Below, piece after piece: positions 25,897 to 30,067 of a stretch of DNA of 64,000 nucleotides. Where the stretch lies: NCBI GenBank assembly GCA_009930305.1, contig RZYM01000011.1:1-64000 (forward strand), written 5' to 3'. This DNA is from Bacteroidia bacterium. GTDB lineage: Bacteria > Bacteroidota > Bacteroidia > Bacteroidales > Paludibacteraceae. The stretch's first letter is position 1, and the number at the start of each line of letters is the position of its first letter. A program made the position numbers and the translations under genes. The notes beneath the pieces are model-generated. The model searched no databases. It saw only the letters and a list, made by a program, of their open reading frames with translations, and was not told where the DNA came from.

Positions 25897-26787
25897 ATGA
25901 TTAGTGCTTTTTTACAATATTTGCAGTATGAGAAGAATTTTTCTTCCCATACTGTTTTTGCATATAGAAAAGACCTCGAACAATTCTCATCGTTCGTTAG
26001 TGAAAAATACAACTTACAAAGCCTTGTCGACGTTAAATCCGATTATGTTAGAGATTGGATTATTTCACTAAAAGAGGCAAAGTTAACATCAACATCCATT
26101 AATAGAAAGATTTCTACACTCCGTTCATTCTATAAATTTTGCAGAAAGCATAATTCAAATATTGGTGATCCACTAGCAAAAGTTAGCGCACAAAAGACAG
26201 GCAAAAAACTTCCGATTTTTTTTAAGGACTCCGAAATAGAAAGCGTACTATCTGATAATCCGATTGTTGACAATTTTTCCGATTCAAGAGACGATATTAT
26301 TTTGGAAACTTTGTATGATACCGGCATTCGTAGAGCCGAATTAATAACAATAAAAGATGAAGATTTTAATTTTTTCTCGCTAACTTTGCGTGTAATGGGT
26401 AAAGGAAATAAAGAGCGAATAATACCTATTAGTAATATATTAAAAGTAAAAGCAAAAAACTACATTAATATAAAGAAGGGTTTATTTGGGAATACAGATT
26501 CATTTATTGTAACAGATAAAGGATGCCCAACTTATCCAAACTTTATATACAGAGTAGTTAAAGACAAAATGGGAACTGTAAGTATGTTGGACAAGCGAAG
26601 TCCCCACGTAATAAGACACACGTTTGCCAGCGGGATGTTAAACAACGGAGCTGAACTAAATGCAGTGAAAGATCTATTAGGACATGCAAATTTATCTGCA
26701 ACACAAATTTACACACACACATCATTTGAACAATTGAGATCAATATACAAACAAGCACACCCTAGAAACAATAAAAATAACCATTAA
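25897..26787 (+). CDS. xerC: Tyrosine recombinase XerC-like
   Basis: Catalytic motifs YDTGIRRAEL, SPHVIRHTFASGML, LLGHANLSATQIYTH. Confidence 0.9.
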   Translation: MISAFLQYLQYEKNFSSHTVFAYRKDLEQFSSFVSEKYNLQSLVDVKSDYVRDWIISLKEAKLTSTSINRKISTLRSFYKFCRKHNSNIGDPLAKVSAQKTGKKLPIFFKDSEIESVLSDNPIVDNFSDSRDDIILETLYDTGIRRAELITIKDEDFNFFSLTLRVMGKGNKERIIPISNILKVKAKNYINIKKGLFGNTDSFIVTDKGCPTYPNFIYRVVKDKMGTVSMLDKRSPHVIRHTFASGMLNNGAELNAVKDLLGHANLSATQIYTHTSFEQLRSIYKQAHPRNNKNNH

Positions 26788-27278: not shown

Positions 27279-27352
27279 GCCTCTTTAGCTCAGCTGGCCA
27301 GAGCACGTGATTTGTAATCTCGGGGTCGTTGGTTCGAATCCGACAAGAGGCT
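27279..27352 (+). tRNA. tRNA-Thr (anticodon TGT)
   Basis: Cloverleaf: GCCTCTT/AAGAGGC acceptor, TGT anticodon, GGTTCGAATCC T-arm. Confidence 0.96.
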
Positions 27353-27379
27353 CAAAAAATAGGTTTTGTTCTATTTAAT

Positions 27380-27461
27380 GGGCAGTTACCAGAGTGGCCA
27401 AATGGGGCTGACTGTAACTCAGCTGTTTTAAACTTCGGTGGTTCGAATCCATCACTGCCCA
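27380..27461 (+). tRNA. tRNA-Tyr (anticodon GTA)
   Basis: GGGCAGT/ACTGCCC acceptor, GTA anticodon, long variable arm. Confidence 0.96.
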
Positions 27462-27500
27462 CAGAATTGCAGGATAATTTGCAAGATTGACAAAAAAAAT

Positions 27501-27573
27501 GCGGGAATAGCTCAGTTGATAGAGCATTAGCCTTCCAAGCTGAGGGTCGCGGGTTTGAGTCCCGTTTCCCGCT
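27501..27573 (+). tRNA. tRNA-Gly (anticodon TCC)
   Basis: GCGGGAA/TTCCCGC acceptor, TCC anticodon. Confidence 0.96.
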
Positions 27574-27581
27574 CTTTTTTT

Positions 27582-27654
<73 letters not shown>

Positions 27655-27710
27655 CTCTCAATAGCGCGTATTAACAATCAAGATAATCCTAACTAATAAA
27701 AAGTACAATT

Positions 27711-28898
27711 ATGGCAAAAGACAAATTTGACAGGTCGAAACCGCACGTAAACATCGGAACTATCGGTCACGTAGATCATGGTAAAACAACCTTAACAGCT
27801 GCTATTACTACAGTTTTGGCAAAGAAAGGACTTTCCGAAGTTAAATCATTCGATCAAATCGATAACGCACCGGAAGAAAAAGAACGTGGTATAACAATTA
27901 ACACATCACACGTAGAATACAAAACAAATAACCGTCACTACGCACACGTAGACTGTCCGGGACACGCTGACTATGTTAAAAACATGGTAACTGGTGCTGC
28001 TCAAATGGATGGTGCAATCATCGTTGTTGCTGCAACTGATGGTCCAATGCCTCAAACACGTGAGCATATCTTGTTAGCTCGTCAGGTAAACGTTCCTCGT
28101 CTTGTTGTATTCATGAACAAGTGCGATATGGTTGACGATCCTGAAATGTTGGATTTAGTAGAAATGGAAATGCGTGAGCTTTTAAGTTTCTATGAATTCG
28201 ATGGTGACAACACTCCTGTTATCCGTGGTTCTGCTCTAGGCGCATTAAACGGCGTCCCAGAATGGGAAGACAAAGTAATGGAATTAATGGATGCTGTTGA
28301 TACTTGGATTGAGTTACCAAAACGTGACATTGAAAAACCTTTCTTGATGCCTGTTGAAGACGTATTCTCAATTACAGGTCGTGGAACAGTTGCTACTGGA
28401 CGTATCGAAACCGGTATCGTTAAAGTTGGTGATGAAGTTCAAATCATCGGTTTAGGTGCTGATGGTAAGAAATCAGTTATTACAGGTGTTGAAATGTTCC
28501 GCAAATTGTTGGATCAAGGCGAAGCTGGTGATAATGTAGGTTTATTACTTCGTGGTATCGATAAAGATGATATCAAGCGTGGTATGGTTATTACTCACCC
28601 GGGAGCAGTTACTCCTCACGCTGAGTTCAAGGCTTCTGTCTATATATTGAAAAAAGAAGAAGGTGGTCGTCATACTCCATTCCATAATAAATATCGTCCT
28701 CAATTCTATATCCGTACATTGGATGTAACTGGTGAAATCAGTTTACCTGATGGCGTAGAAATGGTAATGCCAGGCGATAACTTGGAAATCACTGTTAAAC
28801 TAATTTTCCCAGTAGCTTGCAGCGTAGGTTTACGTTTCGCTATCCGCGAAGGTGGACGTACAGTAGGTTCTGGTCAAATTACCGAAATAGTAGGTTAA
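27711..28898 (+). CDS. tuf: Elongation factor Tu
   Basis: [22 protein letters not shown], full-length EF-Tu. Confidence 0.99.
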
Positions 28899-28911: not shown

Positions 28912-28951
28912 CATTTACGAAGGTTCGCCTTGCGGAGAACCTTCGTAAATG
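28912..28951. terminator. 15-bp perfect stem-loop catttacgaaggttc...gaaccttcgtaaatg after tuf (no T-tract)
   Basis: Read directly. Confidence 0.5.
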
Positions 28952-28956
28952 AATAA

Positions 28957-29287
28957 ATGAGTTGGAGAAATTTGACTTAAAAATAACGTGAGTTGAAGAA
29001 ATTTAACTCACATACGGGTCTAGCTCAGTTGCCAAAAGTATATTAAGGTATGCTCTACTAACTGAACAGTATTCGAAAAAAAAATAACGTGAGTTGAAGA
29101 AATTTGACTCGCATACGGGTCTAGCTCAGTTGCCAAAAGTATATTAAGGTATGCTCTACTAACTGAACAGTATTCGAAAAAAAATAACGTGAGTTGAAGA
29201 AATTTAACTCACATACGGGTCTAGCTCAGTTGGTAGAGCATCGGTCTCCAAAACCGAGTGTCGGGAGTTCGAGCCTCTCGACCCGTG
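28957..29287 (+). repeat. Tandem tRNA-Trp-derived repeat: units 28985-29085, 29086-29185, and the final unit with the intact tRNA; degenerate leader copy at 28957-28979
   Basis: Near-identical 100-101-bp units; each truncated unit carries acgggtctagctcagttg (29014-29031, 29115-29132). Confidence 0.92.
29215..29287 (+). tRNA. tRNA-Trp (anticodon CCA)
   Basis: ACGGGTC/GACCCGT acceptor, CCA anticodon. Confidence 0.96.
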
Positions 29288-29305
29288 CAAACAAAATAAC
29301 TAACC

Positions 29306-29497
29306 ATGAAGGTAGTAAATTATATCAAAGAATCTTACAACGAACTCGTTCATAAAGTTTCTTGGCCAACTGCAAAGGAATTAACCAATAGTTCAATCAT
29401 CGTACTAGTAGCTTCCCTAATACTGGCGTTGATAATTTGGGTAATTGACCTTGGTTTTGAAGAAATAATGAAGTTGATTTACAGTTTGATAAGCTAA
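29306..29497 (+). CDS. secE: Preprotein translocase subunit SecE
   Basis: Short single-TM protein, ESYNELVHKVSWPT motif, position before nusG. Confidence 0.95.
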   Translation: MKVVNYIKESYNELVHKVSWPTAKELTNSSIIVLVASLILALIIWVIDLGFEEIMKLIYSLIS

Positions 29498-29512: not shown

Positions 29513-30067
29513 ATGTCTGAGGCAACGGAAAAAAGATGGTACGTTCTACGTGCTATCAGTGGTAAGGAGAACAAAGTACGTGAGTACCTTGATGCAGAGA
29601 TTAAAAATAATACTGCACTCTACAACTACGTATTTCAGGTTCTGATTCCTACGGAAAAAGTATATCAAATCCGTAACGGTAAAAAGACAATCAAAGAACG
29701 GAGCTATTTGCCAGGTTATGTACTTGTAGAAGCTACACTGACAGGAGAAATTGTTCACTATTTAAGGAACATTCCTAATGTTATCGGCTTCTTAGGAGGT
29801 AATTCAGCAAATGCAACTCCTCTTCGTCAATCGGAAGTTAATCGTATTTTAGGTACGGTTGATCAACTCCAAGAAAACGAAGAAGAATTAACAGTGCCTT
29901 TCTTTGTGGGTGAAACCGTAAAAGTAATTTCAGGACCTTTCAACGACTTCTCCGGTATAATCGAAGAAGTAAATAACGAGAAAAAGAAACTGAAGGTTAT
30001 GGTCATGATTTTTGGGCGGAAAACTCCGCTTGAATTGAGCTTTATGCAAGTAGAAAAAGAACAATAA
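29513..30067 (+). CDS. nusG: Transcription termination/antitermination factor NusG
   Basis: KRWYVLRAISGKENKV, LPGYVLVEA, KOW domain. Confidence 0.97.
   Translation: MSEATEKRWYVLRAISGKENKVREYLDAEIKNNTALYNYVFQVLIPTEKVYQIRNGKKTIKERSYLPGYVLVEATLTGEIVHYLRNIPNVIGFLGGNSANATPLRQSEVNRILGTVDQLQENEEELTVPFFVGETVKVISGPFNDFSGIIEEVNNEKKKLKVMVMIFGRKTPLELSFMQVEKEQ

Follow-up and report, generated by a model that had tools for sequence, protein, structure and literature searches.

Tandem leader units with cognate sense and antisense copies of tRNA 5' arms in two bacterial phyla, a possible switch of tRNA folding

Among the closest described systems are the rtT repeats of the Escherichia coli tyrT operon (Rfam RtT family), tandem repeats that each carry a tRNA fragment, lie downstream of the tRNA and copy its 3' end. 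The units described here are likewise tandem repeats in a tRNA transcript, each with a tRNA fragment, but they lie upstream and combine a lesioned copy of the tRNA 5' part with an antisense of the cognate arm. Duplications at att sites are also partial tRNA copies adjoining an intact tRNA gene; here, however, the 5' part is copied, the units measure about 75-130 nt, the array holds no integrase or cargo and there is an extra antisense arm. T-box riboswitches are similar in that a leader RNA pairs with a specific tRNA, whereas our antisense would find its partner, a D or anticodon arm, in the tRNA of its own transcript, and no T-box family match was obtained. Attenuators and riboswitch expression platforms offer a further likeness, since a sense copy (S1), an antisense (A) and the real tRNA arm (S2) are predicted to form exclusive pairings, the first early and the second thermodynamically preferred, although control would here fall on a tRNA instead of a terminator or ribosome-binding site, and A is not followed by any visible poly-U terminator. 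Lastly, the 3' external transcribed spacer of E. coli leuZ is a sponge of small RNAs derived from a tRNA precursor, a case of a non-tRNA part of a precursor serving as regulatory RNA, as is proposed here; the leuZ spacer targets small RNAs, while the present units are complementary to their cognate tRNA. We know of no leader-encoded switch acting on the folding of a tRNA itself. The literature yielded no description of such units, subscription journals and preprints lying outside the scope of the search, so that an earlier description is possible.

The window, a stretch of 64,000 nt from contig RZYM01000011.1 of a Bacteroidia bacterium, carries such an array in the tuf-secE spacer. The tuf gene for elongation factor Tu, recognised from its ORF and translation, occupies 27711-28898 of the forward strand, on which the array and the genes around it also lie. 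It is followed by an 18-nt inverted repeat at 28912-28951, a terminator- or processing-like hairpin, and by a partial third copy of the unit leader at 28958-28977, the remnant of an older unit. Two units of ~101 nt each then precede the intact tRNA-Trp (CCA) at 29215-29288, the only one found in the genome, and each consists of a leader hairpin, S1, a CC lesion, a short stretch and A. The leader hairpin, GTGAGTTGAA-GAAA-TTTAACTCAC, seen in the sequence and its fold, precedes unit 1 at 28988-29011, recurs between the units at 29089-29112, where substitutions in its 3' arm keep the pairing through G-U, and stands immediately 5' of tRNA-Trp at 29189-29212. S1 is exactly tRNA-Trp nt 1-18 in both units (29014-29031 and 29115-29132) and divergence begins at G19, with CC in place of G19 U20 (29032-29033 and 29133-29134). 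A, which reads ATGCTCTACTAACTGA, is antisense to the tRNA-Trp D-arm (nt 12-27) and lies at 29050-29065 in unit 1 and at 29151-29166 in unit 2; its partner S2 is at 29226-29241.

Tandem Repeats Finder reports this array at 28979-29232 with a period of 101, 2.5 copies and 96% matches, the repeat search of the window places the copies 101 and 100 nt apart, and both A segments are 94% complementary to S2. These searches bear out the first-pass annotation, which had described tRNA-Trp 5' ends cut short and joined to an inverted D-arm. Beyond that description, it is the sense copy that is damaged, whereas A matches the real tRNA perfectly or with wobble pairs; the array mostly lies between promoter and tRNA, and the element is found again at many cognate tRNAs of two phyla.

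Downstream of tRNA-Trp are secE (29306-29497) and nusG (29513-30067), ORFs identified by position and sequence, and four tRNAs at 27279-27655, tuf, tRNA-Trp, secE and nusG all run in one direction. Inspection by eye showed no Bacteroidetes -7 box (TAnnTTTG) from the end of tuf to the units. Because the genes are co-directional and this interval has no such box, the array is probably part of the tuf operon transcript. Upstream of the tRNA-tuf cluster, at 25897-26787, a 296-aa ORF resembles a XerC/D-type tyrosine recombinase and is probably a housekeeping gene. Of the 48 tRNA genes examined in the window's genome, tRNA-Trp alone is preceded by units.

Known families do not account for the array. 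Against Rfam 15 (T-box, RtT and others), only tRNA genes in window 26-32 kb and eight further loci scored above the gathering threshold. The units end after the D-arm or the anticodon arm, without the 3' acceptor strand and T-arm of tRNA genes or full pseudogenes, and ARAGORN calls no tRNA in them. As had been suggested from the window alone, this is no normal att scar of the 3'-end type: the duplicated parts are 5' in every locus, and no genes, integrase and cargo included, fit within the array. Phages and plasmids gave no match to the unit, and viral contigs none with the genuine pattern, the viral pattern matches being coding sequence or a tRNA itself. The 100-nt unit was also sought elsewhere in the window's genome, a check proposed in the first-pass annotation, and there was no second full-length match, as dispersed palindromes of the REP or RPE kind would have given. 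Box C/D guides (CUGA) and integron attC sites show resemblance only, their defining motifs being absent by eye. CCA-addition to a tRNA fragment was considered as a source of the CC lesion and rejected, as CCC or other letters predominate at this position in Gastranaerophilales units; a role in sensing cleaved tRNA halves would suit the D-arm units but not those with an anticodon-spanning antisense.

Similarly built elements stand before tRNA-Trp, Gly, Val, Lys, Arg, Ala, Thr, Phe and Leu genes of Paludibacteraceae, other Bacteroidales and Candidatus Gastranaerophilales, a group of a separate phylum. The window's genome is congeneric with MAGs labelled Paludibacteraceae. A comparison with relatives, likewise proposed at the outset, revealed tRNA-Trp units of differing sequence in three more species of this genus (loci L020, L021 and L024) and none in other species, together with tRNA-Gly units in several members (L039, L040, L046 and L058); in these relatives the copied 18 nt match whichever tRNA lies downstream. 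Within the family a unit pattern gave 29 matches in 14 of 358 genomes and the reversed control pattern gave 0, so that against this null the pattern exceeds chance. When 85,462 species genomes were searched for the exact pattern, 42 stretches came out, which belong to Bacteroidales (Paludibacteraceae, Paludibacter, Symbiothrix and others) and to Candidatus Gastranaerophilales and relatives, one of the MAGs in the latter group being labelled Acinetobacter; one stretch is from Blastocatellia and has no tRNA nearby. The tRNA genes adjoining these matches are Trp, Gly, Lys or Val. In one Gastranaerophilales genome an automatic test found a cognate copy or antisense at ~10 of 40 tRNAs, against 1.3 for mismatched tRNA/leader pairs, and a few further leaders look related by eye. 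This distribution agrees with the "small tRNA-derived repeat family" that was one of the options first listed. The tRNA-Trp units in three more species contradict a one-off neutral duplication absent from close relatives, and an inverted template switch with tandem expansion, taken as a one-off, fails to account for recurrence at many tRNAs in two phyla.

Variant units were noticed in the Gastranaerophilales genome G398, in leaders that belong to tRNA-Ala, Val, Leu, Pro, Thr and Phe (L184, L186, L192, L194, L196, L140 and L152). In several of them a second core (GGCAAGGACTCCG..GGAGGG) recurs, together with an antisense and a tightly turned sense copy of the 3' half of the D-arm.

In general a unit runs from S1 (tRNA nt 1 to a loop, lesioned) through a core and A to an AU-rich spacer, after which comes the next unit or the tRNA with S2. 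The antisense matches its own tRNA's D-arm even where that arm is unusual, as in five variant forms, given here as D-arm/antisense: GATAGAGC/GCTCTATC in L046, GGATAGAGC/GCTCTATCC in L182, CAGCTGG/CCAGCTG in L235, GAGT/ACTC in L098, L109-L111 and L116, and AATGGCT/AGCCATT in L319. Deviations within A are mostly G-U pairs, and a mismatch is frequent at the terminal position. The pattern behind most loci fixes part of S1 and A, and conservation there is therefore partly enforced. For this reason tRNA-Gly loci were taken irrespective of units, namely Gly-TCC loci in Gastranaerophilales and Gly-GCC loci in the genus of genome G306 (n=115). A 5' copy, defined as a direct copy of at least 12 nt, was present in 30 of the 115, and 28 of these 30 had an antisense of at least 9 Watson-Crick pairs; among the 85 copy-less loci, 81 had 5-8 antisense pairs and 4 had at least 9. 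Every unit listed from this sample has a longer contiguous duplex for A:S2 than for A:S1, owing to damage in the S1 loop (CC at G19, CCA in the anticodon loop, or a large core).

The tRNA-Gly sample also contained other forms. The antisense covers nt 7-19 or 7-20 in L306 and L319, the anticodon arm is copied with an altered loop in L308-L310 and L329, and in the anticodon type of Bacteroidales a copy of nt 1-36 and an anticodon-arm antisense are arranged around a core like AAAGAATGGACACGAATCC (L340, L342, L343, L359, L369, L371 and L374). In the D-loop, anticodon-loop and nt 7-20 forms alike, A is centred where the copy departs from the tRNA, and the copy/tRNA junctions fall in hairpin loops. 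Two further forms were observed in passing. In the genus of G306 the D-loop may be swapped for an unrelated hairpin (CCCGATAGCTATCGGG or TCTCGCCAAAGGCGAGA) with the D-stem mostly kept (L352, L372, L337, L346, L347 and L370), and very short truncated copies (GCGAAA..TAGCTCAGTT..CATTAAT) immediately 5' of a unit or tRNA-Gly at L362, L331 and L339 are perhaps remnants or precursors of units.

The insert between S1 and A is, in Gastranaerophilales, common to units of different tRNAs. Its hairpin has four examined pairs that are standard in 122 of 124 cells by hand parsing, which may introduce some bias, and one Y-R pair is C-G in 15 units and T-A in 14. Selection on the structure of this core hairpin would be the simplest explanation of the covariation. 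The cores differ between the two phyla. In 23 of 24 loci tested, Bacteroidetes promoter boxes were found 5' of the first unit, and the stretches between units had none; in the remaining locus the unit had escaped the regex. The units are thus pre-tRNA leader, outside the tuf operon case. Comparison at the sequence level establishes this leader position together with the anatomy, cognate complementarity and recurrence of the units. Gastranaerophilales leaders also have an AU-rich motif (AAAATTTAATA / ACAATTGAATAA) ~10-20 nt 5' of unit-bearing tRNAs, which occurs before some tRNAs without clear units as well and may be a processing site.

Folding predictions, which are secondary-structure energies with tRNA tertiary contacts, modification, RNase P and kinetics outside the model, suggest how S1, A and S2 may interact. 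A:S2 is lower in energy than the native acceptor plus D-stem in all 41 loci, by 4 to 19 kcal/mol (mean 10.8), and in most loci the 3' acceptor strand of the tRNA then pairs with the unit's acceptor copy. When the transcript is grown in silico across these loci, S1:A has a mean probability of 0.84 before the tRNA and A:S2 reaches 0.98 once the D-arm is transcribed; five of the 41 (four tRNA-Val and one tRNA-Ala) have no S1:A just before the tRNA. The prediction is thus of bistable pairing, with two exclusive pairings of A that change in relative stability as transcription of the downstream segment proceeds. The native acceptor stem has a mean probability of 0.06 at unit loci as against 0.69 at unit-less loci. 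Scrambling A raises the former to 0.21 only, a partial rescue that is explained by competition from the S1 acceptor copy as well.

We tentatively propose, as an account that is plausible though somewhat short of probable, that the units are 5' leader elements of the pre-tRNA working as a cognate sense-antisense strand-exchange switch. A would pair with S1 during synthesis of the leader and, as predicted by folding, move to the real arm once S2 emerges; it should prefer S2 because S1 is damaged and S2 intact. In the A:S2 state there would be no cloverleaf, and the 3' acceptor strand would tend to pair with the S1 acceptor copy. Maturation would then be set by the winning pairing, which folding kinetics, RNase P, a chaperone or a core-hairpin ligand might decide, and the array would consequently set or regulate the output of its own tRNA; it is from such predictions that we infer control of tRNA maturation by the units. 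Tandem copies, which would multiply A, may arise by unequal crossing-over. The strongest arguments against the switch are patchiness, since presence in some close relatives and not in others implies that the element is dispensable, and the fact that the cell depends on an essential tRNA-Trp from a single gene whose transcript is predicted mostly to misfold.

Foremost among the rivals is a mutational or selfish origin, in which the units are quasi-palindromes with no regulatory role. Template switching at tRNA hairpin loops would yield a partial sense copy and an inverted copy, arrays would expand by unequal crossing-over, and the lesions would merely stop an extra 5' half from competing as a tRNA. 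Such an origin would suit the patchy presence, the copy number that varies between species, the junctions in hairpin loops and the drift of the first unit's acceptor copy, later units agreeing with the tRNA. It is harder to reconcile with a covarying core hairpin common to units of different tRNAs and with complementarity maintained through G-U changes. Moreover, a lesion that neutralised A would be expected in A itself, whereas it is found in S1, and A begins several nt past the junction, so that a simple snap-back does not produce it. On balance we regard this origin as rather unlikely.

A mobile element, site-specific or RNA-guided, that inserts in tRNA loops would leave similar traces if the gene were restored by 5' duplication and A were a guide spanning the junction. 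The junction-centred A of all three forms, the core common to different tRNAs and the direct repeats flanking the insert would all fit, but units of this size without genes inside are small for such an element, A would need rewriting for each tRNA, and the unit is absent from phage and plasmid collections, viral contigs giving chance matches only. The Bacteroidales anticodon-type core, tried as a dispersed mobile sequence in the 358 genomes with up to 3 mismatches, matched only two tRNA-Gly loci and nothing outside tRNA leaders. We therefore think guided insertion improbable. Similarly placed is the idea of a function in trans, in which units freed from the pre-tRNA leader would serve as small antisense RNAs or decoys for tRNAs, tRNA fragments or enzymes acting on tRNA. 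The leuZ spacer offers a precedent, RNase E might cut in the AU-rich spacers that separate units, and arrays of up to 4 or more units would supply repeated dosage. Against this, the tertiary structure of a mature tRNA hides its D-arm, S1 is predicted to mask A in a released RNA, and A is cognate to the adjacent gene though several tRNAs have an identical D-arm. An assembly artefact is very improbable, for although the records are mostly MAGs and several arrays lie at contig ends, single units occur in non-repetitive contexts, in many independent assemblies and with conserved tuf/secE flanks.

The units thus have the appearance of an RNA element not described before, one that could turn the folding of a tRNA on or off. 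They may even represent a new class of cis-acting RNA controlling the folding of the tRNA that follows, a possibility that we raise with due reserve, in which a leader hairpin particular to each tRNA carries an antisense able to seize the cognate arm, with the D-arm, nt 7-20 or the anticodon arm as target, in at least two phyla. If the strand-exchange switch is real, bacterial tRNA output would be tunable gene by gene via folding, through cognate base-pairing. If the units are instead a mutational or mobile product, they would point to a process, as yet undescribed, that in two phyla repeatedly places antisense copies of tRNA arms next to the cognate genes.
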